A DNA stretch of 64,000 bases from Asterias amurensis. Lineage: Eukaryota > Echinodermata > Asteroidea > Forcipulatida > Asteriidae. This document shows, piece by piece, positions 1 to 35,996 of this stretch (the stretch's first letter is position 1; every line of letters starts with the position of its first letter). The DNA lies in the NCBI RefSeq assembly GCF_032118995.1, contig NC_092660.1, positions 19,020,501-19,084,500 of the forward strand, read 5' to 3'. The translations under genes were made by a program, and so were the position numbers. The notes under the pieces were generated by a model. That model had not been told where the DNA came from, made no database searches, and saw only the letters and a list, made by a program, of their open reading frames with translations.

Positions 1-1
1 A

Positions 2-1726
2 TGGGGTGAGACCACTTATCAAACCGTAAATGGACGATTCATCTTCGTTACATCGGTAGGTGTGAATACTCAAACAGTTGTTCAAGACTTTACCATCACC
101 AATGTGCAGAGGGCCGATACTAATGAATATGTGTGTAGAGTCAATTACCAAATAGCCACCGGAGGCAGCACCATCGTAGCCTCATCCAGTGTAACACTTT
201 CAGTGTTATACTTCCCCAATGCGTCCTTCCCTATGTGCTCTCCTGCTGGACCCATTACAGTAGACGCTGGGACAGAGTTAGATAAGAGTTGTTCATCTGA
301 GAGCAGTCACGGAACAGTCACAATGACGATCAATCCCACTATACAGACTTCTAGATACACCAACTGGATATCAGTAATCAACGATGATAGCGATACAGTC
401 TCCAGGACATTAGAATTGACAGTGGATGATGCTGACAATGGTGTTGCATTCGATTGCTTCATATCATCAATGTACTTCGATGGTATGCAACGTACATGTC
501 ACATCGGACCAATTACAGTGAGGAACACCTTGACAATACCCATGACAGAACCCACAACAGCATCTACGTCAACACCATCTACAGCAGGATCAGCGAGACC
601 ATCGACTGGAAATCCTACTCCATCTACAGAGAACGAGGTTACTTCAACCTACTCCTCTGCATCTACTCAATCTACGTCCACGCCTTCGTCCAGTCCTGCC
701 GCCATTGCCGGAGCAGTCGCCGGGGGAGTCGCTGTATTTATTCTCCTCGTAATCCTGATCCTTATTTGCTGCAAACGATGCTCCGGCAACTCGGATCCCA
801 AATCGGAACAGTTCAATGAAGACATCAACCAAACAAATACTGACTTGACACTAGATAGACTTGAGCAGTCTCAGGTCAGTTTTAACGAGTATGGAGATCT
901 TGACTCAATACAGTATGGATTACAGGATAATATCATATATGTCCCATCCCGGAGCCCAATATCCGGACCAGGTGAGTCTTACGCTGGCACTTTGGCGGTA
1001 CAAACAGCTGAGACGATTGATCCAAGTCTAATTTATGCAAAACCAATCCGTACCAAAACTCAAAAGACTGAACGTGAATTGAAGAAGCAACAGTCAGACC
1101 CCAACGATAACCCTACAACTGATCAGAGTTACAACAATCCTGCATTTGATTCTAATGTCTCTGGTGGAACAACAGCGCCCTATTGGGACGACTCACCCAC
1201 TCCCACACCGGCGGCATCGGTTAGACCAACTCGACCTAGTAAACCCACACCCTATAATCCCGACCCGTCACAGCGTAACCCATTGGGTACCCGTAATGAC
1301 AATCCTGTGATTGAGTCAAGTGTCTCTGATGGAACAACATCGCCCTCTGGAGTCGACTTATTCACATCCACCAAACCGATTGCATTAGTCAGACCAACTC
1401 GACCTAGTAAGCCCAGACCCTATAAGCCCAAGCCAGCAGAGCGTACGAGTGACACCCCGAGTACCCACAACGACCGGATGCCACCCTCTCCCCCACCCCT
1501 AACAAGCGTCAATGACGGTGCCCCTAGCCTGGAAAACACCGACGATTCTCCTTATGCCCAAGACTCCGTACCCATGAGACAGCAGAGTAGTCATGGCAAC
1601 CCAGCATCTGAGGATCACATTGTCTATGCTGATTTGGATTTGCAATCAGACGAGATTCAAGATGGCGGACACCACCCTCAACCAGCATCTGAAGCAGTGC
1701 TGTACTCGAGTGTAATGATGAACTAA
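2..1726 (+). CDS. R1: Ig-domain membrane receptor, type B ITIM tail (5' end outside window)
   Basis: The frame is open from base 2 to a TAA stop at 1724-1726. It begins inside a V-type Ig domain (W-G-E at bases 2-10) and includes the D-x-x-x-Y-x-C motif (DTNEYVC) near base 115. A second Ig-like domain follows, then a Ser/Thr/Pro stalk (about bases 540-695) and a transmembrane helix (about 701-772, AIAGAVAGG then a Val/Ile/Leu run) ending in CCKRC. The roughly 315-residue tail is proline-rich, has two PTRPSKP-type PxxP stretches and ends in two ITIM-consensus sites, IVYADL and VLYSSV, 26 residues apart. The family role is inferred: cell-surface receptor whose phosphorylated ITIMs would recruit SH2 phosphatases of the SHP type. 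The tail is almost identical to that of R7. The signal peptide and first part of the V domain lie before the window. AATAAA follows at 1850. Confidence 0.88.
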   Translation, partial: WGETTYQTVNGRFIFVTSVGVNTQTVVQDFTITNVQRADTNEYVCRVNYQIATGGSTIVASSSVTLSVLYFPNASFPMCSPAGPITVDAGTELDKSCSSESSHGTVTMTINPTIQTSRYTNWISVINDDSDTVSRTLELTVDDADNGVAFDCFISSMYFDGMQRTCHIGPITVRNTLTIPMTEPTTASTSTPSTAGSARPSTGNPTPSTENEVTSTYSSASTQSTSTPSSSPAAIAGAVAGGVAVFILLVILILICCKRCSGNSDPKSEQFNEDINQTNTDLTLDRLEQSQVSFNEYGDLDSIQYGLQDNIIYVPSRSPISGPGESYAGTLAVQTAETIDPSLIYAKPIRTKTQKTERELKKQQSDPNDNPTTDQSYNNPAFDSNVSGGTTAPYWDDSPTPTPAASVRPTRPSKPTPYNPDPSQRNPLGTRNDNPVIESSVSDGTTSPSGVDLFTSTKPIALVRPTRPSKPRPYKPKPAERTSDTPSTHNDRMPPSPPPLTSVNDGAPSLENTDDSPYAQDSVPMRQQSSHGNPASEDHIVYADLDLQSDEIQDGGHHPQPASEAVLYSSVMMN

Positions 1727-1786
1727 CATTGATGTTTTTGATAGGTATCATAGGATGAGAAAGACGCTGCCCTTCTCCTTGTCACC

Positions 1787-2031
1787 TGGGCCCAATTTCA
1801 TAGAGCTGCTAAGAACAACAAAATTGCTTAGCATGAAATTTCTTCCTTGAATAAAACAGGACTACCAACCAAGTTTCTACCTGTTGCATATTGCTTGTTA
1901 CTGGTATTCAGCTGTTGTTTGCTTATCCTGAAAATCACATGGAAATTTGGTTGGTAATCCTGTTTGTATCAAGGAAGAAATGTCATGCTTAGCAAATGTT
2001 TGTGCTCAGCAACTCTATATGAAATTGGGTT
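1787..2031. repeat. Foldback element, TGGGCCCAATTTCATAGAGC family, copy 1
   Basis: A short inverted-repeat element begins TGGGCCCAATTTCATAGAGC and ends in the reverse complement (ATGAAATTGGGTTC). Copies lie near 27,391, 33,107, 45,555 and 55,993. Because the copy after R7 sits at the same distance from the stop codon, this one was duplicated along with the receptor block. It probably lies in the R1 3' UTR. Confidence 0.7.
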
Positions 2032-3097
2032 CGGTATTCTCTCCCAATCTAATCTACGTACCTTCTCCTAAAATGCTTATCAGCTCTTATTTATCCCTTG
2101 ATTAATCTTCAAATAATTTTGTTCTACAATTTGAATTGGCCTCATTGCTTTTTAAATGAACAATTAAGCATCAATTTTAGAAACTTGAGTTTTCAACTGT
2201 TAAATTTAGACATCTTTTTTAGAGCTATTATTTTGTAAACGAGCTATTATACGACCACGGTCTTGAGATCCTATCCGTTAGCCAAGACATTTTCTTGTAC
2301 AAACTTTATAAATAAGGACAAATTTTCACATTAAACATGAATTTGATTTTATATTGTACCGATAACCAAAAACATAAACTTGTTGTTCTTTTGATAAAAC
2401 CTTGCCTTGCTGAAAAAAGGGAACCACAACAAAAACTGCAACCTAACACAATAAAATTAAACCTATTCACAACTAAATTGTACACATTTTTAATACGCTT
2501 CTTGGGTTAAAAATAATAAATCTCAGAAGCGTCACAAGTTGTCACGAACTATACAAACATAACTGCATGGGCTTTTATTTCTCAAAATCAAGCGGTTTGT
2601 ATCCCCCTTAACGTGCACTCAGTACCACACCCTTTGCCACACCCATTGCCACACCCACACTTCCATACCATCGCCGAAGGGTGTTCGTCCATGTCCTTCA
2701 AGTTTTCCCTCCACTATATCTGCCTAAATTTCAAAACAGTGTCGTGGTTGGAAACTTTGCTATTTTGTAATCACAACAATTTCATACATTTTGGATTATT
2801 TCACTTGAATGAAATTGTTTTGTCTGTGGGTTTTAAGGTTTTAAGATTTTGAAAAATGTGTACACTTTGCTAATATAACCGCATCTAATACAGAAAAAAA
2901 CTATAACAAACAAAATGTACGTTTACGATTAAAAGGCGTGTACAAACACTTTGTGTGAATTGATTGCAAATGTATCCTTAAGTATTCAGAAGATAATTAA
3001 TATCCAAAAAAGTTACATGTCAAAGTTATGTTTTATGATTGATATATTTTTACATTAACGCTAAAATGAAGTCGGTGTGATCGGTGTTTGCTAAGAT

Positions 3098-3225
3098 TAA
3101 AGGGACCGTGTCGTCATGACTAATGATACGGAGTAGGGAAGGCGCACCTGCAGTAACTGGTTGATAGATCATAGTTCCATGTACAGCAATGGCCTGCTTT
3201 GACCATGACGACACAGCCCCTTTAA
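3098..3225. repeat. 130-bp foldback element, TTAAAGGGaCTGTGTCGTC family, copy 1
   Basis: The left end is TTAAAGGGACCGTGTCGTCA and the right end is its reverse complement (GACGACACAGCCCCTTTAA). Related copies occur at 12,666, 19,245, 22,721 and 28,632, always at a similar place in the receptor unit, so most were spread by block duplication rather than by independent insertion. Confidence 0.7.
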
Positions 3226-3486
3226 TCTATTTTCACGTCACACTTTTAGGTTTTGATAAAAAAATTAAAAAGTCAGAAAAAAATGAATAATATTTTTGTA
3301 CTCAGATTGCATCAACAGTGTAAGAACCTGCTCGACATTATGTTTTTTTTTTAGTGAATATTCATTTGGAATTAGGATAAATGATTATGTCTGAACCTGC
3401 TTCTGATCAATATGTTACTTAATAAATAAATTACTTAAAAAAATCATTTCAGATTAAAAATAACAACAAGATTTTGATTAAGATAA

Positions 3487-3650
3487 ATGTATTAATTTTT
3501 GGTTTTTACCCATATACACCGATGTGTGTAGCACTGTATACTCAGTACTTACCCGAGTCCTATGAAAAAAATCACAGGCATTTTTACTCGGGTGGGATTC
3601 GAACCCACGACCTTTGCATTTCCAGAGCAGTGTCATACCAACAAGATAAA
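3487..3650 (-). mobile_element. tRNA-derived SINE, copy 1 (truncated)
   Basis: On the minus strand a tRNA-like head carries a B-box-like GGTTCGAATCCCACC. It is followed by a body with a TATACAGTGC stretch and a tail near CATCGGTGTATATGGG. Better copies lie at 15,983, 24,674, 46,232 and 55,514. This copy lacks the A-box half. Confidence 0.65.
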
Positions 3651-3839
3651 TGTAATTGGAAAACATGAATATGTGCGTATACCTGCTTGATATTAATAAA
3701 TTTTGCATTTTGAAAATTTTGTATGTTAAAATTCTGCTATAGAATTATTGTATAATTAATTTTGTTTTATATTAGAATACAATCGAGGACTTGTATGAGC
3801 TAGAATAGAAAAGACTCTGACAAAATACTGAACCATTTT

Positions 3840-4255: not shown

Positions 4256-4261
4256 ATGCAT

Positions 4262-5637: not shown

Positions 5638-6935
5638 CTAATTGTTAATGTTCTGATACTGCTTCTCAGCTGAACTCTGTGGCACTCTGACCGCTTCATA
5701 GCTGGTGTTGGTGCTGCCCTCTGGACGAGCGTAGTCATACTCTGGGCTGCCATTCTCTACTTCAACTGGTTGGTAGTAGGTATCTTGTGTTGGAATTGTC
5801 TCTTCGGTCGTAGTGGGTTCCATGTAGACGCGATTCCTGTCCTCCTCCGTTGGCTGCAGCTCCATGTAGGGATCAGGTGGGTGACGCGAGGTTCTTTCTC
5901 AGAGGTGAGTCTTTTTATCAGACGTTTCTGTCTGACGTCACGAAGGATGAGAATGATGATAATGACAAAGAATGTCACAGCGAGGACTAAGACAACAATG
6001 AAAGCTACAATCCATGGAGTTGAAGATGGGGCTGGATCAGACGAGCCTGGGCTAGACAAAGTTGAAGAGGTTGAAGTAGCCTCGTTCTCTGCGATTGGAG
6101 TAGGATTTCCAAACGATGATCTCGTTGATCCTGCTGTAGATGATATTGACGTGGATGATGTTGTGGGTTCTGTCGTGGGTACTGTCACAGTGTTCCTCAA
6201 TGTAATTGGTCCGATTTGACATGCACCATGCATACCAGCGAAATACATTGATGATATGAGGCATTCGAATACAACACCATTATCAGCATCATCCACTGTC
6301 AAATCTAATGTCCTTAAGACTGTATCGTTATCATCGTTGATTACTGATGCCCAGTTGGTGTATCTAGAAGTCTCTATAGTGGGATTGATCGTCATTGTGA
6401 CTGTTACGTGACTGCTCTCAGATGAACATCTCATATCTAACACTGTCCCAGCGTCTACTGTAATGGGTCCAGCAGGAGAGCACATAGGGAAGGACGCACT
6501 GGGGAAGTATAACACTGAAAGTGTTACACTGGATGTGGCTACGATGGTGTGGCCTCCACCCTGTATTGGGTCATTGACGTTACACACATATTCATCAGTA
6601 TCGGCCCTCTGCACATTGGTGATGGTAAAGTCTTGAACAACTGTTTGAGTATTCACACCCGATGTAACGAAGATGAATCGCCCATTCACGTTTTGATAAG
6701 TGGTCTCACCCCATCTCAGGGTAAACTGAGTTCTCCACTCCACGATATGATGCGACTCGAGGTTTGTAGCGGTACACCTCATATCAACCTGCCCGCCCTC
6801 CTTACGATCAGCCTCTGGTGTTAAGATCTCTGCATACACTGTTGGTTGAGCAGTGACAACCATCAGGAATCCGCCTGCATCAAGTGAACACCAAACACAC
6901 ACCAGCAAAACATACATCGAGCTCCTTCCATCCAT
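5638..6935 (-). CDS. R2: type A Ig receptor with a tail frameshift
   Basis: The minus-strand start is MDGRSSMYVLL at 6935. The signal peptide, V-type Ig domain, second Ig-like domain, stalk and transmembrane helix all read normally. Just after the membrane (around 5877-5881) one T is missing from the CAGGTTGGG seen in the R3 copy, so CAGGTGGG shifts the frame. As written, the protein is 392 residues and ends at 5757 in 40 unrelated residues. The proper type A tail (YMEL, YMEP, YYQP, YARP, TSYEAV, YQNI) remains open in the other frame down to a TAG at 5638. Either this is a recent pseudogene or tail-altered allele, or it is a one-base assembly error. The V domain is also shorter than in siblings after its core Trp (RTQFTLRW). 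The gene converges on R1. Confidence 0.85.
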
Positions 6936-9942: not shown

Positions 9943-11226
9943 CTAATACTGCTTCTCAGCTGAACTCGGTGGCACTCTGACCACTTCATAGCTGGTGTTG
10001 GTGCTGCCCTCTGGACGAGCGAAGTCATACTCTGGGCTGCCATTCTCTACTTCAACTGGTACTTGGTAGTACGTATGTTGTGCGGGATTTGTCTCTTGAG
10101 TCTCCGTGTAGACGCGATTCCTGTCCTCCGTTGGCTGCAGCTCCATGTTGGGATCAGGTTGGGTGACTCGAGGTTTTTTCTCAGAGGTGGGTCTTTTTAT
10201 CAGACGTTTCTTTCTGACGTCACGAAGGATGAGAATGATGATTATGACAAAGAATGTAACAGCGAGGATTAAGACAACAATGAAAGGTACAATCCATGGA
10301 GTTGAAGATGGGGCTGCACCAGAGCTTGGGCTAGACACTGTTGAAGAGGTTGAAGTAACCTCGTTCCCCGTAGTTGGTGTAGGATTTCCAATCGATGGTG
10401 TCGTTGATCCTGTTGTTGATGATGTTGACGTGGATGATGTTGTGGGTTCTGTCATGGGTATTGTCACGGTGTTCCTCACTGTAATTGGGCCGATGTGACA
10501 TGTTCGTTGCATACCAGCGAAATACATTGATGATATGAAGCATTCGAATGCAACACCATTATCAGCATCATCCACTGTCAAATCTAATGTCCTTAAGACT
10601 GTATCGCTATCATCGTTGATTACTGATGTCCAGTTGGTGTATCTAGAAGTCTGTATAGTGGGATTGATCGTTATTTTGACTGTTCCGTGACTGCTCTCAG
10701 ATGAACATCTCATATCTAACTCTGTCCAAGCGTCTACTGTAATGGGTCCAGCAGGAGAGCACATAGGGAAGGACGCATTGGGGAAGTATAACACTGAAAG
10801 TGTTACACTGGATGTGGCTACGATGGTGTTGCCTCCACCCTGTATTGGGTAATTGACATTACACACATATTCATCAGTATCGGCCCTCTGCACATTGGTG
10901 ATTGTAAAGTCTTGAACAACTGTTTGAGTAGCTGTATCTACCGATGTATCGAAGATGAACCGTCCATTGTTATTATTAAAGGTGGCTCCACCCCATCGCA
11001 GGGTCTCTATAGGGTCCTCAGTCCTCCACGCCACGATACGATCCGACCCGAGGTCTGTAGCGATACACCTCATATCAACCTGCCCGCCCTCCTTCCGATC
11101 GGCCTCTGGTGTTAAGATCTCTGCATACACAGTTAATTGAGCACTGACAACCATCAGGAATCCGCCTGCATCAAGTGAACACCAAACACACACCAAAAAA
11201 ACATACATCGAGATCCTTCCCTCCAT
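9943..11226 (-). CDS. R3: type A Ig receptor with eroded tyrosine tail and early stop
   Basis: Intact 427-residue frame: MEGRISMYVFL signal peptide, V-type Ig (C-54, W-67, DTDEYVC), second Ig-like domain, Thr/Ser stalk, transmembrane helix (IVPFIVVLILAV onward) and basic RKKRLIKR stop-transfer. The tail departs from its siblings at several signalling sites: the usual PYMEL is PNMEL, YTEP is YTET, YDYARP is YDFARP. The final codons are cut by a CAG-to-TAG change at 9943-9945, so the protein ends KQY and loses the QNINN that completes the YQNI motif. The ancestral stop is still visible at 9928. YQVP and TSYEVV remain. Expression is likely from the conserved 5' flank. It may be a membrane form with reduced signalling (inference). 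Confidence 0.88.
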   Translation of the reverse strand: MEGRISMYVFLVCVWCSLDAGGFLMVVSAQLTVYAEILTPEADRKEGGQVDMRCIATDLGSDRIVAWRTEDPIETLRWGGATFNNNNGRFIFDTSVDTATQTVVQDFTITNVQRADTDEYVCNVNYPIQGGGNTIVATSSVTLSVLYFPNASFPMCSPAGPITVDAWTELDMRCSSESSHGTVKITINPTIQTSRYTNWTSVINDDSDTVLRTLDLTVDDADNGVAFECFISSMYFAGMQRTCHIGPITVRNTVTIPMTEPTTSSTSTSSTTGSTTPSIGNPTPTTGNEVTSTSSTVSSPSSGAAPSSTPWIVPFIVVLILAVTFFVIIIILILRDVRKKRLIKRPTSEKKPRVTQPDPNMELQPTEDRNRVYTETQETNPAQHTYYQVPVEVENGSPEYDFARPEGSTNTSYEVVRVPPSSAEKQY

Positions 11227-13530: not shown

Positions 13531-14835
13531 CTAATTGTTAATGTTCTGATACTGCTTCTCAGCTGAACTCTTTGGCACTCTTACCGCTTCATAGCTGGTG
13601 TTGGTGCTGCCCTCTGGACGAGCGTAGTCATACTCTGGGCTACCATTCTCTAATTCAACTGGTTGGTAGTAGGTATCTTGTTTTTGAATTGTCTCTTCAG
13701 TCGTAGTGGGTTCCATGTAGACGCGATTCTTGTCCTCCGTTGGCTGCAGCTCCATGTAGGGATCAGCTTGGATGACTCGGGGTTCTTTTTCAGAGATGAG
13801 TCTTTTTATCAGACGGTTCTTTCTGACGTCACGAAGGATGAGAATGATGATGACCACGAAGAATGTAACAGCGAGGACTACGACAACAATGAAAGCTACA
13901 ATCAATGGAGTTGAAGATCGGGCTGGATTAGACGAGCCTGGGCTAGACACTGTTGAGGAGGTTGAAGAAGCCTCGTTCTCTGTAGTTGGAGTAGGATTTC
14001 CAATCGATGATCTCGTTGATGCTGCTGTAGATGATGTTGACGTAGATGCTGTTGTGGGTTCTGTCATGGGTATTGTCACGGTGTTCCTCACTGTATATGG
14101 TCCGAATTGACATGTACGTTTCATACCAGCGAAATACATTGATGATATGAAGCATTCGAATGCAACACCATTATCAGCATCATCCACTGTCAAATCTAAT
14201 GTCCTTAAGACTGTGTCGCTATCATCGTTGACTACTGATGTCCAGTTGGTGAATCTAGAATTCTGTATTGTGGGATTAATCGTGATTGTGACTGTTCCGT
14301 GACTGCTCTCAGATGAACACCTCATATCTAACTCTGTCCCAGCGTCTACTGTAATGGGTCCAGCAGGAGAGCACATAGGGAAGGACGCATTGGGGAAGTA
14401 TAACACTGAAAGTGTTACACTGGATGAGGCTACGATGGTGGTGCCTCCGATCGATATTGGGTCATTGACATTACACACATATTCATCAGTATCGGCCCTC
14501 TGCACATTGGTGATGGTAAAGTCTTGAACAACTGTTTGAGTATTCGCACCCGATGTATCGAAGATGAATCGTCCGTTTCTATTATGAACAGTGAATTCAC
14601 CAAATCTCAGGGTCTGTATTGGGTCCTCAGTCCTCCACTCCACGATGTAATCCGACTCGAGGTTTGTAGCGGTACACCTCATATCAACCTGCCCGCCCTC
14701 CTTACGATCAGCCTCTGGTGTTAAGATCTCCGCATACGCTGTTGGTTGAGCAGTGACAACCATCAGGAGTCCGCCTGCATCAAGTGAACACCAAACACAC
14801 ACCAGCAAAACATACATCGAGATCCTTCCATCCAT
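13531..14835 (-). CDS. R4: intact type A Ig receptor
   Basis: 434 residues, no intron. Signal peptide about 1-29. V-type Ig with C54, W67 and D115-x3-Y119-x-C121. Second Ig-like domain with C173 and C228 (DNGVAFEC), a Trp at 198 away from the usual place and an additional C155/C242 pair. Potential N-glycan sites include NAS at 149 and NWT at 197. Ser/Thr stalk about 255-309, transmembrane 311-334, then a basic RDVRKNRLIKR segment. Tail tyrosines: Y360 (YMEL), Y373 (YMEP), Y389 (YYQP), Y404 (YARP), Y415 (T-S-Y-E-A-V, ITSM consensus) and Y429 (YQNI, a Grb2-type YxN). Y415xxV and Y429xxI are spaced like an ITAM with Val in the first half. It is a plausible signalling receptor of immune or adhesion type. 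It is divergently transcribed from R5. Confidence 0.93.
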   Translation of the reverse strand: MDGRISMYVLLVCVWCSLDAGGLLMVVTAQPTAYAEILTPEADRKEGGQVDMRCTATNLESDYIVEWRTEDPIQTLRFGEFTVHNRNGRFIFDTSGANTQTVVQDFTITNVQRADTDEYVCNVNDPISIGGTTIVASSSVTLSVLYFPNASFPMCSPAGPITVDAGTELDMRCSSESSHGTVTITINPTIQNSRFTNWTSVVNDDSDTVLRTLDLTVDDADNGVAFECFISSMYFAGMKRTCQFGPYTVRNTVTIPMTEPTTASTSTSSTAASTRSSIGNPTPTTENEASSTSSTVSSPGSSNPARSSTPLIVAFIVVVVLAVTFFVVIIILILRDVRKNRLIKRLISEKEPRVIQADPYMELQPTEDKNRVYMEPTTTEETIQKQDTYYQPVELENGSPEYDYARPEGSTNTSYEAVRVPKSSAEKQYQNINN

Positions 14836-15480: not shown

Positions 15481-15502
15481 CGTGTTTAATATTTGCCTTC
15501 TT

Positions 15503-15893
15503 TTTAAAGACACTGGGCCCTTTTGGTAATTGTCAAAGACCAGTCTTCTCACGTGTATCTCAACATGCACAAATTAACAAACCTTCGAAAAAATTCGAAC
15601 TCAAATGGTCGTCGAAGTTGCGAGATAATAATGGAAGAAAAAACACCCTTGTCAGACGAAGTTGTGTGCCTTCAGATGCTTGATTTCGGTGACTCAAAAT
15701 CCAATTCTGAGGTCTCGAAATCAAATTCAAATATTTAGTGGAAAATTACTTCTTCTTCGAAAGGTAGATTATTAGAGGGAGCCGTTTCTCGCAATGTTGT
15801 ATACTATCAACAGCTCTCCAATGCTTGTTACCAAGTAAGTTTTTATGCTAACATTTATTTTGAGTAATTACCAATAGTGCCCAGTGCTTTTAA
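15503..15893. repeat. Foldback element, TTTAAAGaCACTGGaC family, copy 1
   Basis: Ends are TTTAAAGACACTGGGCCC with a TTGGTAATTGTC block, and on the right AATTACCAATAGTGCCCAGT with TTTTAA. The inside has the typical AACCTTCGAAAAAATTCGAA and GGAGCCGTTTCTC blocks. Copies lie at 23,928, 30,656, 33,814, 41,489 (short), 49,522, 56,462 and 61,664. Such inverted-repeat elements without coding capacity are MITE-like. This copy lies between the R4 and R5 promoters. Confidence 0.75.
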
Positions 15894-16733: not shown

Positions 16734-18089
16734 ATGGATGGAAGGATCTCGATGTATGTTTTGCTGGTGTGTGTTTGGTGTTCACTTGATGCAGGCGGAC
16801 TCCTGATGGTTGTCACTGCTCAACCAACAGCGTATGCGGAGATCTTAACACCAGAGGCTGATCGTAAGGAGGGCGGGCAGGTTGATATGAGGTGTACCGC
16901 TACAAACCTCGAGTCGGATCATATTGTTCAGTGGGCAACTGAAGATCCAGGACAGAACTTGAGATGGGGTGATTTAACTGTTTTTAACAACAATGGACGA
17001 TTCATCTTCGATACATCGGTAGGTGTGAATACTCAAACAGTTGTTCAAGACTTTACCATCACCAATGTGCAGAGGGCCGATACTGATGAATATGTGTGTA
17101 ATGTCAGAGACCCAATACCGACCGGAGGCAGCACCATCGTAGCCTCATCCAGTGTAACACTTTCAGTGTTATATTTCCCTAGTGCGTCCTTCCCTATGTG
17201 CTCTCCTGCTGGACCCATTACAGTAGACGCTGGGACAGAGTTAGATATGAGGTGTTCATCTGAGAGCAGTCACGGAACAGTCACAATGACGATCAATCCC
17301 ACTATACAGACTTCTAGATACACCAACTGGATATCAGTAATCAACGACGATAGCGATACAGTCGTAAGGACATTAGATTTGACAGTGGATGATGCTGACA
17401 ATGGTGTTACATTCGAATGTCTCATATCATCAATGTATTTCGCTGGTATGCAACGTACATGTCAAATCGGACCGATTACAGTGAGGAACACCGTGACAAT
17501 ACCCATGACAGAACCCACAACATCATCCATAGCATTATCTACATTAGGATCAACAGAACCCTCGACTGGAAATCCTACTCCATCTACAGAGAACGAAAGT
17601 AATTCGATGTACTCTGCGACATCTACCATGACAAAACCCATAACACCAGAACAGATAACAACTGAGTCTAGACTAAGGTCGTCTGATCAAGCCCCATCTT
17701 CAACTCCATGGATTGTAGCTTTCGTGATCCTCGCTGCTACATCCTTTGTGATCATCATCATTCTCATCCTTCGTGATGCCAGAAAGAACCGTCTGATAAA
17801 AAGTCTGAGAACTGAGAAAGAACCTCGAGTCACCAAACCTGATCCCTACATGGAGCTGCAGCCAACGGATGACAAGATCCGCGTCTACACGGAACCCACT
17901 ACGACTGAAGAGACAATTCCAACAGAGAAGAGACAATTCCAAGATACCTACTACCAACCAGTTGAAGTAGAGAATGACAGCCCAGAGTACGACTACGCTC
18001 GTCCAGAGGGCAGCACCAACACCAGCTATGAAGTGGTCAAAGTACCACATAGTTCAGCTGAGGAGCAGTATCAGAACATTAACAATTAG
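16734..18089 (+). CDS. R5: intact type A Ig receptor with long stalk
   Basis: 451 residues without introns. The start context ACGATGG is the same as in all siblings. Signal peptide about 1-29, V-type Ig domain (loop VQWATEDPGQNLRW), second Ig-like domain, then a longer stalk than R4. The stalk has an added TMTKPITPEQITTESRL segment. The transmembrane helix starts near IVAFVILAA. Tail: YMEL, YTEP, YYQP, YARP, TSYEVV and terminal YQNI, so all six tyrosine sites of the type A module are present. A short in-frame tandem duplication of about 20 bp near 17,908-17,943 adds EKRQFQ residues before the YYQP site. Divergent neighbour of R4. Function as for R4, inferred from motifs only. Confidence 0.93.
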   Translation: MDGRISMYVLLVCVWCSLDAGGLLMVVTAQPTAYAEILTPEADRKEGGQVDMRCTATNLESDHIVQWATEDPGQNLRWGDLTVFNNNGRFIFDTSVGVNTQTVVQDFTITNVQRADTDEYVCNVRDPIPTGGSTIVASSSVTLSVLYFPSASFPMCSPAGPITVDAGTELDMRCSSESSHGTVTMTINPTIQTSRYTNWISVINDDSDTVVRTLDLTVDDADNGVTFECLISSMYFAGMQRTCQIGPITVRNTVTIPMTEPTTSSIALSTLGSTEPSTGNPTPSTENESNSMYSATSTMTKPITPEQITTESRLRSSDQAPSSTPWIVAFVILAATSFVIIIILILRDARKNRLIKSLRTEKEPRVTKPDPYMELQPTDDKIRVYTEPTTTEETIPTEKRQFQDTYYQPVEVENDSPEYDYARPEGSTNTSYEVVKVPHSSAEEQYQNINN

Positions 18090-20706: not shown

Positions 20707-22011
20707 ATGGATGGAAGGATCTCGATGTATGTTTTGCTGGTGTGTGTTTGGTGTTCACTTGATGCAGGCGGATTCCTGATGGTTGTCACTGCTCAACCAA
20801 CAGCGTATGCGGAGATCTTAACACCAGAGGCTGATCGTAAGGAGGGCGGGCAGGTTGATATGAGGTGTACCGCTACAAACCTCGAGTCGGATTACATCGT
20901 GGAGTGGGCAACTGAACATCCAAAACAGAGCTTGAGATGGGGTGATGTCACTGTTTTTAACAGCGTTTGGCGATTCATCTTCGGTACATCGGGTGTGAAT
21001 ACTCAAACAGTTGTTCAAGACTTTACCATCACCAATGTGCAGAGGGCCGATACTGATGAATATGTGTGTAATGTCAATTACCGAATACAGGGTGGAGGCT
21101 ACACCATCGTAGCCTCATCCAGTGTAACACTTTCAGTGTTATACTTCCCCAGTGCGTCCTTCCCTATGTGCTCTCCTGCTGGACCCATTACAGTAGACGC
21201 TGGGACAGAGTTAGATATGAGTTGTTCATCTGAGAGCAGTCACGGAACAGTCACAATGACGATTAATCCCACAATACAGAATTCTAGATACACCAACTGG
21301 GCATCAGTTATCAACGATGATAGCGATACAGTCGTAAGGACATCAGATTTGACAGTGGATGATGTTGATAATGGTGTTGCATTCGACTGCTTCATATCAT
21401 CCATGTATTTCGCCGGTATGAAACGTACATGTCAATTCGGACCAATTACAGTGAGGAACACCTTGACAATACCCTTGACAGAACCCACAACATCATCTAC
21501 GTCAACATCATCTACAGCAGGATCAACGAGACCATCGACTGGAAATCCTACTCCATCTACAGGGAACGAGGTTACTCCAACCTCCACAACTGTGTCTAGC
21601 CCAAGCTCATCTGATGCAGCCCCATCTTCAACTCCATGGATTGTAGCTTTCATAGTTGTCTTAGTCCTCGCTGTTACATTCTTCGTGACCAACATTATTC
21701 TCATCCTTCGTGACGTCAAACAGAAACGTCTGATAAAAAGACTTAGATCTGAGAAAGAACCCCGAGACACCCAACCCGATCCCTACATGGAGCTGCAGCC
21801 AACGGAGGACAAGAATCGCGTCTACACGGAACCCACTACGACTGAAGAGACAATTCGAACACAACATACCTACTACCAACCAGTTGAGGTAGAGAATGGC
21901 AGCCCAGAGTATGACTACGCTCGTCCAGAGGGCAGCACCAACACCAGCTATGAAGCGGTCAGAGTGCCACAGAGTTCAGCTGAGAAGCAGTATCAGAACA
22001 CCAACAAATAG
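20707..22011 (+). CDS. R6: type A Ig receptor
   Basis: 434 residues, intronless. Signal peptide, V-type Ig domain with a changed loop (FNSVWRFIFGTS in place of NNNGRFIFDTS), second Ig-like domain, stalk and transmembrane segment (IVAFIVVLVLAV, then a polar Thr-Asn pair before IILIL). Tail has YMEL, YTEP, YYQP, YARP and TSYEAV. The last motif is YQNT and the end is NTNK instead of NINN: the Grb2-type YxN is kept but the +3 Ile is not. Upstream flank is complete, so it is likely expressed. Confidence 0.92.
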   Translation: MDGRISMYVLLVCVWCSLDAGGFLMVVTAQPTAYAEILTPEADRKEGGQVDMRCTATNLESDYIVEWATEHPKQSLRWGDVTVFNSVWRFIFGTSGVNTQTVVQDFTITNVQRADTDEYVCNVNYRIQGGGYTIVASSSVTLSVLYFPSASFPMCSPAGPITVDAGTELDMSCSSESSHGTVTMTINPTIQNSRYTNWASVINDDSDTVVRTSDLTVDDVDNGVAFDCFISSMYFAGMKRTCQFGPITVRNTLTIPLTEPTTSSTSTSSTAGSTRPSTGNPTPSTGNEVTPTSTTVSSPSSSDAAPSSTPWIVAFIVVLVLAVTFFVTNIILILRDVKQKRLIKRLRSEKEPRDTQPDPYMELQPTEDKNRVYTEPTTTEETIRTQHTYYQPVEVENGSPEYDYARPEGSTNTSYEAVRVPQSSAEKQYQNTNK

Positions 22012-23900: not shown

Positions 23901-23927
23901 CTAAATCGTGATTAATATTTGCCTTCT

Positions 23928-25482: not shown

Positions 25483-27330
25483 ATGGAGGGAAGGATCTCG
25501 ATGTATGTTTTGCTGGTGTGTGTTTGGTGTTCACTTGATGCAGGCGGATTCCTGATGGTTTTCACTGCTCAACCAACAGTGAATGTGGTGATATTAACAC
25601 CAGAGGCCGATCGTAAGGAGGGCGGGCAGGTTGAAATGAGGTGTACCGCTACAAACCTCGAATCACATCATATCATGGAGTGGAGGACTGTGGACCCAGA
25701 CACGACCCTGAGATGGGGTGAGACCACTTATCAAAACGTGAATGGGCGATTCATCTTCGTTACATCGGTAGACATGGCTACTCAAACAGTTGTTCAAGAC
25801 TTTACCATCACCAATGTGCAGAGGGCCGATACTGATGAATATGTGTGTAATGTCAATGACCCAATGCAGAGTGGAGGCAGCAACATCGTAGCCACATCCA
25901 GTGTAACACTTTCAGTGTTATACTTCCCCAGTGCGTCCTTCACGATGTGCTCTCCTGCTGGACCCATTACAGTAGACGCTGGGACAGAGTTAGATATGAG
26001 GTGTTCATCTGAGAGCAGTCACGGAACAGTCACAATGACGATCAATCCCACTATACAGACTTCTAGATACACCAACTGGACATCAGTAATCAACGATGAT
26101 AGCGATACAGTCGTAAGGACATTAGATTTGACTGTGGATGATGCTGACAATGGTGTTGCATTCGAATGCTTCATATCATCAATGTATTTCGCTGGTATGC
26201 AACGTACATGTCAAATCGGACCAATAACAGTGAGGAAAACCGTGACAATACCCATGACAGAGCCCACAAATTCATCCACGACTTCGTCCATTCCTGCCGT
26301 CATTGCCGGAGCAGTCGTAGGGGGAGTCGCTGCATTTCTTCTCTTCGTAATTCTGATCCGCATTTACTGTAAACGACGCTCCGGCAACTCGGATCCCAAA
26401 TCGGAACAGTTCAATGCAGACATCAACCCAACAAATAATGACTTGACACTAGATAGACTTGAGCAGTCTCAGGTCAGTTTCAACGAGTATGGAGATCTTG
26501 ACTCAATACAGCATGGGTTACAGGATAATATCATATATGTCCCCTCACCAAGCCCAATATCCGGACCAGCTGCGTCTTATGCTGGCACTTTGCCGGTACA
26601 AACAGCTGAGACGATTGATCCAAGTCTAATTTATGCAAAACCAATCCGTACCAAAACTCAAAAGACTGAACGTGAACTGAAGAAGCAACAGTCAGACCCC
26701 AACGATAACCCTACAACTGATCAGAGTTACAACAATCCTGCATTTGATTCTAATGTCTCTGGTGGAACAACAGCGCCCTATTGGGACGACTCACCCACTC
26801 CCACACCGGCGGCATCGGTTAGACCAACTCGACCTAGTAAACCCACACCCTATAAACCCAACCCGTCACAGCGTAACACATTGGGTAGGCCTAACAATGA
26901 CAATCCTGTAATTGAGTCAAGTGTCTTTGATGGAACAACAACGCCCTCTGGAGTCGACTTATCCACATCCATCAAACCGATTGCATTAGTCAGACCAACT
27001 CGACCTAGTAAGCCCAGACCCTATAAGCCCAAGCAAGCAGAGCGTATGAGTGACGCCCCGAGTACCCACAATGACCGGATGCCACCCTCTCCCCCACCCC
27101 TAACAAGCGTCAATGACGGTACACCTAGCCTGGAAAACACCGACGATTCACCTTATGCCCAAACCTCCTTACCTATGAGGCAGCAGAGTAGTCATGGCAA
27201 CCCAGCATCTGAGGATCACATTGTCTATGCTGATTTGGATTTGCAATCAGACGAGATTCAAGATGGTGGACACCACCCTCAACCAGCATCTGATGAAGCA
27301 GTGCTGTACTCGAGTGTAATGATGAACTAA
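25483..27330 (+). CDS. R7: Ig receptor with long type B ITIM tail
   Basis: 615 residues, intronless. Signal peptide about 1-29 (MEGRISMYVLL). V-type Ig domain and second Ig-like domain almost identical to type A genes. Very short stalk (MTEPTNSSTTSS), transmembrane helix from AVIAGAVVGGVAAF, then basic CKRRSG. The roughly 315-residue tail shares nothing with type A. It contains YGDL, IYVP, YAKP and YNNP tyrosines, two proline-rich PTRPSKP blocks and two C-terminal ITIMs: I580-V-Y582-A-D-L585 and V607-L-Y609-S-S-V612, 27 residues apart. The YADLDL core closely resembles the SIRP-alpha ITIM known from vertebrates. Expected role by family logic: inhibitory counterpart of the type A receptors through SHP-type phosphatases. 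This is inference. Confidence 0.93.
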   Translation: MEGRISMYVLLVCVWCSLDAGGFLMVFTAQPTVNVVILTPEADRKEGGQVEMRCTATNLESHHIMEWRTVDPDTTLRWGETTYQNVNGRFIFVTSVDMATQTVVQDFTITNVQRADTDEYVCNVNDPMQSGGSNIVATSSVTLSVLYFPSASFTMCSPAGPITVDAGTELDMRCSSESSHGTVTMTINPTIQTSRYTNWTSVINDDSDTVVRTLDLTVDDADNGVAFECFISSMYFAGMQRTCQIGPITVRKTVTIPMTEPTNSSTTSSIPAVIAGAVVGGVAAFLLFVILIRIYCKRRSGNSDPKSEQFNADINPTNNDLTLDRLEQSQVSFNEYGDLDSIQHGLQDNIIYVPSPSPISGPAASYAGTLPVQTAETIDPSLIYAKPIRTKTQKTERELKKQQSDPNDNPTTDQSYNNPAFDSNVSGGTTAPYWDDSPTPTPAASVRPTRPSKPTPYKPNPSQRNTLGRPNNDNPVIESSVFDGTTTPSGVDLSTSIKPIALVRPTRPSKPRPYKPKQAERMSDAPSTHNDRMPPSPPPLTSVNDGTPSLENTDDSPYAQTSLPMRQQSSHGNPASEDHIVYADLDLQSDEIQDGGHHPQPASDEAVLYSSVMMN

Positions 27331-29268: not shown

Positions 29269-29271
29269 ATT

Positions 29272-31303: not shown

Positions 31304-32617
31304 ATGGATGGAAGGATGTCGATGTATGTTTTGCTGGTGTGTGTTTGGTGTTCACTTGATGCAGGCGGATTCCTGATGGTTGTCACTGCTCAACCAACAG
31401 TGTCTGCGGAGATCTTAACACCAGAGGCTGATCGTAAGGAGGGCGGGCAGGTTGATATGAGGTGTACCGCTACAAACCTCGAGTCGCATCATATCGTGGA
31501 GTGGCTGACTGAGGACCCTATAAAGACCCTGAGATGGGGTGGAGCCACTGTTTTTAACAACAATGGACGGTTCATCTTCGATACATCGGTAGATAAAGCT
31601 ACTCAAACAGTTGTTCAAGACTTTACCATCACCAATGTGCAGAGGTCCGATACTAATCAATATGTGTGTATTGTCAATGACCCATTACCTACCGGAGGCT
31701 ACGACATCGTAGCCAGATCTAGTGTAACACTTTCAGTGTTATACGTCCCCAGCATTACGCCACAAAACAATGACATTACAAGCACCATGACAGCCCCATC
31801 TTCAACTCAATGGACTGTAGCTTTCATAGTCCTTGCTGTTGCATTGTTCGTCGTCGTCATCATCATTCTCATCCTTCGTGATGTCAGACAAAAACGTCTG
31901 ATAAAAAGACTCAGATCTAAGAAAGAATCCCAAGTCACCCAACCTCCCTACACGGAGCTGCAGCCAACGGAGGACAGGAATCGCGTCTACATGGAACCAG
32001 TTGAAGTAGATGAAAGCCCAGAGGATTACTACGCTCAGCTTGATGATCCTAGGCATAGTGAGCAAAGAATAAATCACCAAGTCAGTGTGCATGTTGACCC
32101 AACTCCAAGTTCATCAGGAGCAACTGACACTCAACATACCTACTTCCAACCAGACAAAGTAGATAATGGAAGCCCAGAGGATGACTACGCCCAGCCTGAT
32201 GATCCCAAAGAGCAAAAAATTAATCACCAAGTCACTTTGCATGTTGACCCAACACCAAGTTCATCAGGAGCAACTGACACTCAACATACCTACTTCCAAC
32301 CAGACAAAGTAGATAATGGAAGCCAAGAGGATGACTACGCCCAGCCTGATGATCCCAAAGAGCAAAAAATTAATCACCAAGTCACTTTGCATGTTGACCC
32401 AACCCCAAGTTCATCAGGAGCAACTGACACTCAACATACCTACTTCCAATCAGACAAAGTAGATAATGGAAGTCAAGAGGATGACTACCTTCAACCACGG
32501 CCACATGATCTCAAGGAGCAAAAAATAAATCACCAAGTCAGTGTGCATGTTGACCCAACCCCAAGTTCATCAGGAGCAACTGACACTCAACATACATACT
32601 TCCAACAATTGAAGTGA
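31304..32617 (+). CDS. R8: single-Ig receptor with repeat tail, type C
   Basis: 437 residues from the family start ACGATGG (MDGRMSMYVLL). The frame is open upstream to an ATG at 31,103, but those 67 residues match the 5' leader of siblings and would bury the signal peptide, so the inner start is chosen. One V-type Ig domain (C54, W67, DTNQYVC), no second Ig domain, short stalk, transmembrane helix (TVAFIVLAVALF onward) and RDVRQKRLIKRL. The tail starts as type A (PYTEL, YMEP), then runs into 50-residue repeats (150 bp, starts of the TCAACATAC motif at 32,131, 32,281, 32,431 and 32,587). These carry TYFQP and DDYAQP or DDYLQP sites: six YxxP motifs in all, with YAQL, YFQS and YFQQ as variants. 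It ends FQQLK. YxxP is the known binding consensus of Crk-family SH2 domains. Role as a Crk or Nck scaffold receptor is inferred. Confidence 0.9.
   Translation: MDGRMSMYVLLVCVWCSLDAGGFLMVVTAQPTVSAEILTPEADRKEGGQVDMRCTATNLESHHIVEWLTEDPIKTLRWGGATVFNNNGRFIFDTSVDKATQTVVQDFTITNVQRSDTNQYVCIVNDPLPTGGYDIVARSSVTLSVLYVPSITPQNNDITSTMTAPSSTQWTVAFIVLAVALFVVVIIILILRDVRQKRLIKRLRSKKESQVTQPPYTELQPTEDRNRVYMEPVEVDESPEDYYAQLDDPRHSEQRINHQVSVHVDPTPSSSGATDTQHTYFQPDKVDNGSPEDDYAQPDDPKEQKINHQVTLHVDPTPSSSGATDTQHTYFQPDKVDNGSQEDDYAQPDDPKEQKINHQVTLHVDPTPSSSGATDTQHTYFQSDKVDNGSQEDDYLQPRPHDLKEQKINHQVSVHVDPTPSSSGATDTQHTYFQQLK
32041..32617 (+). repeat. In-gene 150-bp tandem repeat (R8 tail)
   Basis: About four units with only scattered base differences; the last unit is 6 bp longer (LQPRPHDL in place of AQPDDP). 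Near-identity of units suggests recent expansion or conversion. Confidence 0.85.
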
Positions 32618-33813
32618 GAATTATTTAAAGCTACTGGATTTGAATAAATTAATGACTACTGATTGATCATCAACACGTATTGTCTTTCCCCATCCGTTTC
32701 AATCAGGAAAGTTGGACCTCATTTCCTCAACATGTATATTAGAAATCCCTCCAACAAAATGATTTCATCTTTTCGTTTTGTTTAATTAAAAAAAAATCGA
32801 AGACTTGTATGAGCTCAGAACAATATTATTCTGCTCAAATACTGAATAATTTTTATGTAATTGAATTAATGGATTTTTACATTTTTGTGTAGGCCAAATG
32901 CATGGCTTTTCTTTCTGTATTTAAAAAGGGACAACAGATTAATAACGGTTTAGGTCCCTGTTGGCACCGTTGGTGGCGTGTTTGTGATGTATTGACAGGG
33001 TACATCCATAGAGCTATACCGCATCAGACATGGGTTCTTTATGTCAGTGGTCTATACTCTGAATTGAACTACCAGACGTTTTTCAAATCAGTTTTGTGCT
33101 ACACCCTGGGCCCAATTTCATAGAGCTGCTGAGCACAAAAATTTGCTTAGCATAAAATTTTCTTCCTTGATAAAAACAGGATTACCAACCAAATTTCCAC
33201 GTGATTTAAAGGATAAGCAAACAGCAGCCGAATACAAGTAATCCTGTTTTTATCAGGGAGGAAATTTCATGCTGAGCAAATTTGGGCCCTGGACAATCTA
33301 TGACGTCACAATCCTTGTCCAAACATATGGAACACACTCTTTGTGAGCGCCCAGTGAGAATTTAAGTGAATTGTTTCACAAACACTATCTCACCTAAACT
33401 TTAATTCTCCAAGCGACTACAGGACCGTAAAAAGGGAAACATTTTGTAAACTATTATTTGATTTGAATCTTTCGACCAATCCTTGTAGTTAGTGTGATGA
33501 TAAATGAAAATGATGTTCAAAAATACATCATTTATTTTGGTGTTTTGGGGGCATGTTATAGAATCAGTTAACCAGCGACATTGCGACCATTTTTGTAAAA
33601 TCTATAGTTGTGTTATTTTTTAAGTTCATTGGCGTTTGGTGTTCAGTATAAGGAAGTACAGCAAAATTAACTTCATAGATACATGGATATTGGTAAATCG
33701 CTGTTACATTGAGCTGTGTGTGAACGTACGTGGCATCATTCGTAAAGGCTGTTACAGAATGGAAGTACGCATTTCCTATCATTGCTTATACAAACTGAAC
33801 TTGATCTTTTATG
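32618..33813 (+). promoter_or_regulatory. R8-R9 spacer with distal R9 promoter block
   Basis: After R8 a minisatellite end (GGATTTGAATAAATTAATGA) leads into the common block: GGCACCGTTGGTGGCG near 32,960, a CRE TGACGTCA near 33,301, GAGCGCCCAGTGAGAAT near 33,347, and AGTATAAGGAAGTAC near 33,647. A GGGCCCAATTTCATAG foldback (33,107-33,291) sits inside it, just upstream of the CRE. Confidence 0.5.
33107..33291. repeat. Foldback element, GGGCCCAATTTCATAG family, copy in the R9 promoter
   Basis: Inserted between GCTACACCCTGG and CCCTGGACAATCTATGACG. The R8 flank reads GCTACCCTGGACAATCTATG without it near 29,760, an empty site that shows a CCCTGG duplication. It is therefore younger than the R8/R9 split. 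Confidence 0.72.
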
Positions 33814-34162
33814 TTTAAAGGCACCAACACATTCGGTAATTGTCAAGACAAGTACTCTCACTAGCTGTATCCAAACATATGCATAAAATAACAAATCTGT
33901 GAAAATGTTGACTCAATTGATCATCGAAGTTGCAAGAGAATAATGAAAGAAAACACAACCTTGCATAAGAAAAGGCTTTAGACGTGTGAAGTATTTTAAA
34001 TTTTGATTGAGAAATTACTTCTTTCTCAAAAACTAGTTACTACAGAGGGAGCCGTTTCTCACAATGTTGTATAATCAACAGCTATCCATGGCTCGTTACC
34101 TAGTAACTGTTTACGCTAACAACTATTTTGAGTAATTACCATGTGTCCATCGTGCCTTTAAG
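33814..34162. repeat. Foldback element, TTTAAAGGCAC family, copy in the R9 5' flank
   Basis: Begins TTTAAAGGCACCAACACATT, ends CCATCGTGCCTTTAAG. Corresponds in place to the 30,656-31,047 copy upstream of R8. Confidence 0.7.
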
Positions 34163-34431
34163 AAATTATCCTGTTAAAAACTGGTGTCGTGTTGCAGTAC
34201 CACCAAATCCCTCCTCAATATGAACTGTGAAAGGTTGTTGGTACATTTTCCCATGGCAGAATGTTTGATGAAAAACATCCATTGTTCAATACGTGTACAT
34301 TTAATTTTAGTTTAATCACTTTTACGTTGAGCTGTGCGTGAAGAACGCAGGATCATTCCACGTCAAGCAAGTTTTTTTTTTTCTTCAAAGGAATGATTTA
34401 ATAGCAACATAATAAACTCATGTTCAATACG

Positions 34432-35871
34432 ATGGATGGAAGGATCTCGATGTATGTTTTGCTAGTGTGTGTTTGGTGTTCACTTGATGCAGGCGGATTC
34501 CTGATGGTTGTCACTGCTCAACCTACAGTGTATGCAGAGATCTTAACACCAGAGGCTGATCGTAAGGAGGGCGGGCAGGTTGATATGAGGTGTACCGCTA
34601 CAAACCTCGAGTCGGATCATATCGTGGAGTGGAGGACTGGGAACCCAGACAGGACCCTGAGATGGGGTGAATCCAATGTTGATAATAACAATGGACGATT
34701 CATCTTCGATACATCAGTAGGTGTGAATACTCGAACAGTTGTTCAAGACTTTGTCATCACCAATGTGCAGAGGGCCGATACTGGTCAATATGTGTGTTCT
34801 GTTAAAAACCCTATACCGACCGGAGGCGGCTACAACACCATAGCCAGATCCAGTGTAACACTTTCAGTGTTATACCTCGCCAGCATGACGCCAAAAAACA
34901 TCGAAGTATCTACCACCATGACAGCCCCATTTTCAACTCCATTGGTTGTAGCTTTCATAGTCCTCGCTGTTACAATTTTCGTCGTCGTCATCATCCATGT
35001 CGTCATCCTCATCTTTCGTGTAAGACAAAAACGTCTCATAAAAAGACTTAGATCTGAGAAAGAAAACCAAGTCACCCAAGCTGATCCCTACATGGAGCTG
35101 CAGCTAACGGAGGACGAGAATCGCATCTACATGGAACCAACTACGACTGTGGGAAATATTCCCACACAAGACACCTACTGCCAAGTACCAGTTGAAGTAG
35201 AGAATGAAAGCCCAGAGTATGACTACGCTCGGCCAGATTATCTCAAAGAGCAAAGTTCATCAGGAGCAACTGACACTCAAGTAGATAATGAAAGCCAAAA
35301 GGATGACTACCTTCAACCACGGCCACATTATCTCAAGGAGCAAAGAATAAATCACAAAGTCAGAGTGCACGTTGACGCAACCCTAAGTTCATCAGGAGTA
35401 ACTGACACTCAAGTAGATAATGGAAGTCAAGAGGATGACTACCTTCAACCACGGCCACATGATCTCAAGGAGCAAAGAATAAATCACCAAGCCAGTGTGC
35501 ATGTTGACCCAACTTCAAGTTCACCAGGAGTAACTGACACTCAACATACCTACTTCCAACCAGATAAAGTAGATAATGGAAGCCAAGAGGATGACTACGC
35601 CCAGCCTGATGATCCCAAGGAGCACAAAATAAATCACCAAGTCAGTGTGCATGTTAACCCCACCCCAAGTTCATCAGGAGCAACTGGCACTCAACATACA
35701 TACTTCCAACCAGATAAAGTAGATAATGGAAGCCAAGAGGATGACTACGCCCAGCCTGATGATCCCAAGGAGCAAAAAATAAATCACCAAGTCAGTGTGC
35801 ATGTTGACCCAACCCCAAGTTCATCAGGAGCAACTGACACTCAACATACATACTTCCAACAATTGAAGTGA
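34432..35871 (+). CDS. R9: single-Ig receptor with long repeat tail, type C
   Basis: 479 residues from the family ATG in ACGATGG; a second in-frame ATG 12 bp upstream (MFNT) is specific to this copy. Signal peptide, one V-type Ig domain (DTGQYVC), short stalk, transmembrane helix interrupted by a His (VVVIIHVVILIF), basic RQKRLIKRL. The tail keeps more of the type A start than R8 (PYMEL, YMEP, YDYARP), then has two 44-residue and two 50-residue repeats (motif starts at 35,269, 35,401, 35,533, 35,683 and 35,833). YxxP sites: YMEP, YARP, YLQP twice, YFQP twice, YAQP twice. It ends FQQLK through the same frame change as R8. A fossil type A tail follows the stop. Last receptor of the cluster. Confidence 0.9.
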   Translation: MDGRISMYVLLVCVWCSLDAGGFLMVVTAQPTVYAEILTPEADRKEGGQVDMRCTATNLESDHIVEWRTGNPDRTLRWGESNVDNNNGRFIFDTSVGVNTRTVVQDFVITNVQRADTGQYVCSVKNPIPTGGGYNTIARSSVTLSVLYLASMTPKNIEVSTTMTAPFSTPLVVAFIVLAVTIFVVVIIHVVILIFRVRQKRLIKRLRSEKENQVTQADPYMELQLTEDENRIYMEPTTTVGNIPTQDTYCQVPVEVENESPEYDYARPDYLKEQSSSGATDTQVDNESQKDDYLQPRPHYLKEQRINHKVRVHVDATLSSSGVTDTQVDNGSQEDDYLQPRPHDLKEQRINHQASVHVDPTSSSPGVTDTQHTYFQPDKVDNGSQEDDYAQPDDPKEHKINHQVSVHVNPTPSSSGATGTQHTYFQPDKVDNGSQEDDYAQPDDPKEQKINHQVSVHVDPTPSSSGATDTQHTYFQQLK

Positions 35872-35996
35872 GAATGGCAGCCCAGAGTATGAGTATAATG
35901 CTCGTCCAGAAGGCAGCACCAACACCAGCTATAATTATAAAGCGGTCATAGTGCCACAGAGTTCAGCTGAGAAGCAGTATCACAACATTATTAGAC
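35872..35996 (+). pseudogene. Fossil type A tail in the R9 3' UTR
   Basis: Directly after the R9 stop the DNA still matches the end of the type A tail (AATGGCAGCCCAGAGTATGA, GGCAGCACCAACACCAGCTA, AGTTCAGCTGAGAAGCAGTA). The R9 stop arose where CAACCAGTTGAAGTAGAG of R5 became CAACAATTGAAGTGAG, a small loss that shifts the frame. The TSYEAV and YQNI motifs are thus no longer translated. Confidence 0.75.

Follow-up and report, generated by a model that had tools for sequence, protein, structure and literature searches.

Paired inhibitory and activating receptors that are kept in step by gene conversion have been described mostly from vertebrates. The KIR, LILR and SIRP families resemble the receptors treated here in layout and conversion logic; their activating partners use charged membrane residues together with adaptors carrying immunoreceptor tyrosine-based activation motifs (ITAMs). 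As to domains, SIRP consists of one V and two C1 domains (V+C1+C1), and KIR and LILR are of the C2 type. In teleost fish, the novel immune-type receptors (NITRs) constitute germline V-domain repertoires in clusters, with members that possess immunoreceptor tyrosine-based inhibitory motifs (ITIMs) and members that do not. Here, we describe a family of immunoglobulin superfamily (IgSF) receptors of the sea star Asterias amurensis, as seen in a stretch of 64 kb (C13:19,020,501-19,084,500; hereafter the window) of a genome of 491,506,623 bp in 23 contigs. Positions 1-36,000 of the window contain nine homologous receptor genes (R1 to R9), each of which is one open frame from the signal peptide to the end of the tail, such that no intron is needed. 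Judged from sequence, this intronless family probably works like a germline-encoded paired or multigene immunoreceptor system, in which a pool of ectodomains moves between two old chassis.

The genes encode type-I receptors with a signal peptide, a hypervariable V domain, usually a second immunoglobulin (Ig) domain (D2), a Ser/Thr-rich stalk, a membrane span and a tail with tyrosine motifs. Tail A exhibits the motifs YMEL, YxEP, YARP, TxYxxV and YQN (six motif sites); tail B is characterized by two ITIMs with a spacing of 26-28 residues in 13 of 15 B rows (26 in P0041 of the sea star Patiria miniata). An alignment of the tails of R7 (B) and R4 (A) is no better than noise. In R8 and R9, the tail is a tail A in which a unit of around 50 residues is repeated and then followed by a stop, with distal tail A retained past the stop in R9. 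Since this array derives from tail A, there are two unrelated tails plus one derivative; the preliminary description had assumed three unrelated or rebuilt tails and had set the YxxP arrays of R8 and R9 apart, and these arrays are real (six YxxP in the R8 tail, found in 0 of 5,000 shuffles) but do not represent an unrelated tail. The YxxP array unit is also found in P0032 (second cluster) and in P0013 of A. rubens; array copies in the latter and in the gene at the left end of the cluster (C13:18864188) end with DDYVVSKI, unlike those of R8 and R9.

In our alignments, ectodomains group by cluster, whereas tails group by type. Within the cluster on C13, distances in the signal peptide and V amount to 0.103 among A genes, 0.105 among B genes and 0.107 between A and B; the respective values for D2 are 0.068, 0.055 and 0.063. 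The fixation index (Fst) between 21 A and 7 B genes, calculated in 100-bp intervals (array genes and the eight genes excluded below are left out), does not exceed 0.055 from -100 to +700 and reaches 0.27-0.59 from -1000 to -100, the fall being situated between -200 and -100 (the permutations ignore relatedness). Downstream, the similarity between A and B ends within the stalk. Upstream, the B genes are alike (differences of 0.05-0.16 from -800 to -100), and this sequence is not found in the A genes. Such a two-sided boundary is expected from gene conversion and not from simple tail loss, and the pattern points, at the level of the sequence, to an exchange of ectodomains between receptor chassis. 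Thus, as in paired receptors, the members lie in one locus, near-identical binding domains are found on different tails, and recombination is confined to the ligand-binding part.

On C1, the ectodomain of L041 (B) is 86% identical to that of L044 (A), the tails being unrelated, and only 51% identical to that of the second B gene, L042. In Patiria, the tree places P0039 (B) next to the second part of P0041 (A) as its sister (support 100/100; 69% identity over 167 residues); in the gene model of P0041, a B tail is continued by an A gene, and this run-on suggests that B and A genes are neighbouring there as well. Among the between-cluster pairs computed, identities range from 44 to 51% for ectodomains, from 32 to 45% for B tails and from 38 to 52% for A tails, with the exception of P0034 (ectodomain 30%, tail A 70%). 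In a tree of 63 ectodomains, which were extracted by alignment (5 of 68 rows were dropped for length), the 13 B rows need 10 changes, at least 7 of which are forced by well-supported branches; shuffles need 12.0 changes on average, and 36-40 of 500 are as low as the observed 10. A single B clade on this tree was rejected by the approximately unbiased test (p-AU 2e-4). A separate observation concerns P0034-P0037, P0043 and P0047 (A. amurensis, A. rubens), in which tail A is combined with an ectodomain that has diverged strongly (its identity to R4 is 23-30%), the reverse of the pattern in the window: one tail with two kinds of head.

The window genes form one edge of a cluster which, mapped from twenty neighbouring stretches, spans C13:18,864,188-19,056,371 (192 kb) and contains 39 IgSF receptor ORFs (open reading frames) of at least 300 aa, namely 27 with tail A, 9 with tail B and 3 with an array. 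Of these ORFs, three (18931244, 18934916, 18947586) represent the later portions of genes that a stop or a shift interrupts; there are also shorter fragments. The plus strand carries all nine B ORFs; of the 27 A ORFs, 21 lie on the minus strand (Fisher p 5e-5, to be read descriptively, as the genes are related). Array genes are situated at both ends of the cluster, with one array-like fragment internally. A segmental duplication of 21.5 kb (98.2% identity) connects C13:18864981-18886420 with C13:19026999-19048465 (around 6499-27965 of the window); its core of 17 kb contains 10 mismatches, with less similar sequence on either side, and it is a very recent copy or conversion tract. In a protein search of the genome, at least 113 matched pieces (some genes yielding two) were found on C1, C5, C7, C8, C10, C13, C17, C18 and C21, with tail B on C1, C10, C13 and C18. 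Relatives outside sea stars were not found among the named matches of the protein searches, in each of which 8,000 candidates were scored. At the very start of contig C10 (C10:1601-54815), a second dense gene set with four tail-B genes is located, which may be a subtelomeric copy or a placement problem.

The near-identical 17-kb segment pair and the copy-rich start of C10 are what would be expected if collapsed or duplicated haplotypes in the assembly had created both the copy number and the apparent exchange. We consider such an artefact very improbable, as both the diverged C1 cluster and the proteins of Patiria also exhibit the mixing of A and B, and as the assembly was made from PacBio HiFi reads with haplotypic duplication removed (PMC10625585, presumably describing the same assembly; this and the other papers cited by number are represented here by excerpts, to which our statements on them refer).

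Concerning the structure of the ectodomain, the Pfam family 'ig' or V-set is found above the curated cut-off in seven of the nine window genes (R3-R9), R2 being slightly under it and R1 truncated; besides V/Ig, Pfam yields a weak second Ig match, and the AlphaFold model of R4 exhibits two Ig domains (mean pLDDT, the predicted local distance difference test, 84.6). Placed on the modelled fold, the variation of V sits on the face formed by the complementarity-determining regions (CDRs) and the GFCC' strands: the segments BC-C-C'-C''D and F-FG-G, which comprise 58 of 117 residues, contain 22 of the 25 most variable positions (p 1e-5), and the stretch 122-138 shows a ratio of nonsynonymous to synonymous divergence (dN/dS) of 2.10 (bootstrap 1.55-2.98). 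These segments and this stretch were chosen with the variable positions or the alignment already in view, which favours their p and dN/dS to some degree. Eight of the 39 genes (four near-identical copies and four without a clear start) were left out of the dN/dS and variability analyses. Among 31 genes, there are 28 different CDR1-like, 28 CDR2-like and 27 FG stretches.

Variation on the GFCC' face would likewise suit a homophilic or allogeneic recognition of the Alr or fuhc kind, in which V binds a conspecific V or a polymorphic self ligand and pathogens are not what is sensed. Allorecognition is shown by adult sea-star coelomocytes (PMC9763293), and the IRM proteins Rst and SYG-1, IgSF members acting in cell-cell adhesion, are among the best fold matches of the D1-D2 model. 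A two-domain Ig fold match, however, says little on the ligand: the identity of these IRM proteins to the model is 18%, and antibody Fabs score nearly equally (within 1 Z unit), such that only the general two-Ig arrangement is common to both. We regard recognition of this kind as possible but rather unlikely. A further alternative is an ordinary tandem duplication with concerted evolution of a neutral adhesion-type family, in which the tail classes are relics without signalling. The recent segmental copy of 21.5 kb, the several broken members and a tail dN/dS of 0.65-0.70 within types would agree with it; neutral homogenisation leaves unexplained, however, the boundary that spares the tail and the B upstream sequence, the focus of variation on the V face with an FG dN/dS above 1, and the retention of tyrosine motifs between Asterias and Patiria, and we hold it to be improbable.

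This retention is seen in the tail-A core A(D/E)PYMELQP...VYxEP, which is kept in C13, in both A genes of C1 and in Patiria P0041, and also in C7 and C18 by inferred placement (C18 for P0030, P0032, P0040, P0042 and P0046; C7 for P0020). In C13, all six motifs are present in 22 of the 25 A tails with a readable core (27 A ORFs in total). Eight of the nine C13 B tails carry two strict ITIMs at a spacing of 20-32 residues, counted at the motif level only. Two [ILV]xYxx[ILV] at this spacing arise in 29 (R7) and 36 (R1) of 20,000 tail shuffles, which confirms the tandem ITIMs of R1 and R7 as above chance; the two YxxP in each of these tails are at chance level. A sequence comparison of the tail-B C-terminus with solved structures gave no match. 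On C18 (C18:13,903,699-13,917,620), pieces of an SH2 domain (two exon pieces), a second SH2 domain and a phosphatase are found in this order on one strand, an order that corresponds to the architecture of SHP-1 and SHP-2. The locus is a plausible candidate for the partner of tail B, and together with the conserved tandem ITIMs it makes an inhibitory role of this tail plausible on sequence grounds. Dozens of protein-tyrosine-phosphatase exon matches are also located on C13 (0.4-2.2, 3.7, 5.0, 15-18 and 19.6 Mb), apparently a large phosphatase expansion.

Several observations weigh against a common ectodomain pool serving two chassis with different outputs. The upstream sequences of the A genes are diverse (0.33-0.49 beyond -300), their mutual differences being almost as large as those to the B genes, such that the claim of a promoter specific to the tail type is confined to B. 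For the whole V domain, dN/dS is around 0.7 and the proportion of synonymous differences (pS) around 0.15, and the C-C' patch exhibits a dN/dS of 0.30 at a synonymous divergence of 0.455, compared to 0.08 in the rest of V; diversifying selection is thus clear only at the FG region. The pattern in this patch fits old alternative cassettes better than recent selection, and its codons form blocks common to A, B and array genes, e.g., TAT CAA ... AAT in four of seven B and three of 21 A genes (read by eye). Between tail types, no CDR1-like or CDR2-like stretch is identical among the 31 genes, and identity of FG stretches is limited to a single one. A search among these genes for strict A/B pairs with matching binding faces found none, that FG stretch being the only one shared exactly across tails; as variable faces are seldom identical between genes, a common pool is seen, but exact same-ligand twins are not. 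At least one of the six motifs is missing in 5 of the 27 A ORFs.

Further points against this reading concern the sign of the signal. No ITAM was found in the nine window tails, and 37 of the 39 membrane spans lack K, R, D, E and H, the exceptions being an edge K and an H, so that an activating role of tail A is unproven. The two TxYxxV sites of intact C13 A tails (e.g., TYYQPV and TSYEAV in R4) are 25 residues apart, near the ITIM spacing of B, and tail A could therefore recruit the same phosphatase. The proteins reported for Patiria eggs include Grb2, PLC-gamma, Cbl, Syk and Csk as well as unnamed SH2 phosphatases, and neither SHP nor Crk is named in the main text of the respective paper as excerpted (PMC11593052). 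The lack of ITAMs in the window tails, the uncharged membrane spans and the TxYxxV pair would be accounted for if both tails were inhibitory or modulatory, i.e., by a diversified recognition repertoire with graded dampening and no activating/inhibitory pair. However, neither the two C1 genes nor Patiria P0041 retain the TxYxxV pair in their tail A, which is left with YMEL, YxEP and a YEV, and the array tails multiply YxxP and not TxYxxV. Moreover, YxxP and YxN are adaptor-type sites, YxxP and YxEP being preferred by Crk/Nck/RasGAP-like SH2 adaptors and YxN by Grb2-like ones. Two inhibitory or modulatory tails are a tentative explanation to which we give the smaller weight. The opposite function of the tails that had been proposed at the outset is accordingly plausible on the inhibitory side, with its tandem ITIMs and the SH2-SH2-phosphatase locus, and is unproven on the activating side, with no ITAM in the nine window tails and almost no charged membrane residues.

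As for the individual genes, R1 (1..1726, plus strand) is a tail-B receptor with tandem ITIMs, whose open frame runs from base 2 and terminates with VLYSSVMMN and a stop; its 5' end is cut by the window edge, as the match begins 224 bp upstream and the full ORF extends over C13:19020250-19022226. R2 (5757..6935, minus) is a tail-A receptor with a frameshifted tail and no tyrosine motifs, the remainder of the tail constituting a separate ORF (C13:19026138-19026398). In R3 (9943..11226, minus), likewise with tail A, four of six motifs (YMEL, YxEP, YARP and the last YQN) are gone, and the frame ends early at QY. Intact tail-A receptors are R4 (13531..14835, minus; equal to P0001), with six of six tyrosine motifs, R5 (16734..18089, plus), the protein of which is duplicated identically at C13:18875204-18876556, and R6 (20707..22011, plus). 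R7 (25483..27330, plus) is an intact tail-B receptor with IVYADL and VLYSSV at a spacing of 27 residues. R8 (31304..32617, plus) and R9 (34432..35871, plus) possess a V domain and a YxxP array tail without a second Ig domain; the YxxP units are coded by a 150-bp repeat array in R8 (32010..32606, plus) and by 132/150-bp repeat arrays in R9 (35253..35892, plus), and the distal tail-A relic past the R9 stop is read in downstream DNA (35872..36010, plus).

The nine related genes with similar ectodomains that the preliminary description had listed are thus all recovered (over the two Ig domains, R7 is 83% identical to R4 and 87% to R2), although the cluster is larger than these nine and continues for 156 kb past the left window edge. 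A tail of YxxP, immunoreceptor tyrosine-based switch motif and YxN had been attributed to R2 to R6; owing to the frameshift in R2 and the loss of four of six motifs in R3, it is intact in R4, R5 and R6 only. Elsewhere in the window, there are open frames at 58812-61579 with many DPF/NPF motifs, a feature of endocytic adaptors (no Pfam domain), and an interspersed repeat of 200-400 bp with 78-91% identity is found at 15502-15893, 41533-41745, 49520-49912, 56458-56845 and 61702-61930, which is probably a short mobile element.

Returning to the exchange of ectodomains between two chassis, gene conversion or unequal crossing-over would transfer a common pool of V and D2 from one chassis to the other. 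The two chassis have distinct membrane spans and tails, and that of tail B brings its own upstream sequence. Tail B, with ITIMs around 27 residues apart, would recruit a tandem-SH2 phosphatase of the SHP type and dampen signalling, and tail A and its YxxP-array derivative would act as scaffolds for SH2 adaptors, the output of which would differ from that of tail B or be opposite to it. In this way, a single animal could couple numerous recognition faces to signals of more than one kind, probably on coelomocytes and for microbial or allogeneic recognition. A more far-reaching proposal, for and against which we see about equal weight, is that of a germline cassette system separating recognition from signal, in which the V+D2 pool is continually converted between two ancient chassis (a tandem-ITIM one with its own upstream region and an adaptor-type one with a YxxP-array offshoot), which is kept in several clusters and in both Asterias and Patiria, and in which a paired-receptor logic has arisen independently in an animal without lymphocytes. 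If true, a large, intronless and actively exchanging echinoderm family would mean that paired logic evolved elsewhere too, and it would supply candidate genes for coelomocyte allorecognition and microbial recognition in sea stars. As tails and heads are separable modules, selection for one recognition pool on different outputs becomes testable.

The paired-receptor layout suggested earlier is supported by two tail classes that recur across clusters and in Patiria, homogenised ectodomains, a sharp boundary, opposite prevailing orientation and variation of the binding face; the family works like paired receptors in layout, which does not in itself show membership in that class. The domain organisation of SIRP, KIR and LILR is not matched, as the sea-star receptors combine a single V domain with one additional Ig domain or, in R8 and R9, have no Ig domain besides V. 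The NITRs are likened by description. Among invertebrates, the fester co-receptors (FcoR) of Botryllus are also an IgSF multigene family with linkage to one locus, with tails that contain an ITIM, a hemITAM or a bare Yxx[ILV]; they consist, however, of V, sushi and two C2 domains and partly switch motifs by splicing (PMC12065747), whereas the sea-star genes encode V and one Ig domain without introns and the switch takes place between genes. Pfam reveals no sushi domain in the window genes, and the R4 model contains two Ig domains. The Alr cluster of Hydractinia comprises 41 IgSF genes, which encode V-set and I-set domains (PMC11999971), and Alr candidates carry ITIM/ITAM motifs (PMC12065747); it belongs to a different phylum, was compared by description alone, and an exchange of ectodomains between fixed tails is not seen there in these excerpts. 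With FcoR and Alr, IgSF clusters with such motifs are already known from other invertebrates. Within the literature searched, no description was found of the family, of such a system in this phylum or of an ectodomain exchange between fixed tail classes, in agreement with the earlier statement that none was known.

Clustered genes of the CEACAM1/CEACAM3 type in Xenopus and mammals differ from those of the sea star in several respects: their activating members carry ITAM or ITAM-like tails, of which none was found in the window; their converted exons are nearly free of synonymous differences (PMC5112662), compared to the V pS of the sea star given above; and the sea-star ORFs are intronless, a relationship being seen in the Ig fold only. 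Equally to the sea star, however, CEACAM genes combine similar IgV domains (80-93% identical) with different tails, conversion is confined to the ligand-binding part (there an exon), orientation is non-randomly opposite, and the CC'C''FG face is the one that changes (PMC5112662). Layout and conversion logic are also shared with Siglec-11/16, as far as excerpts on these receptors describe them.

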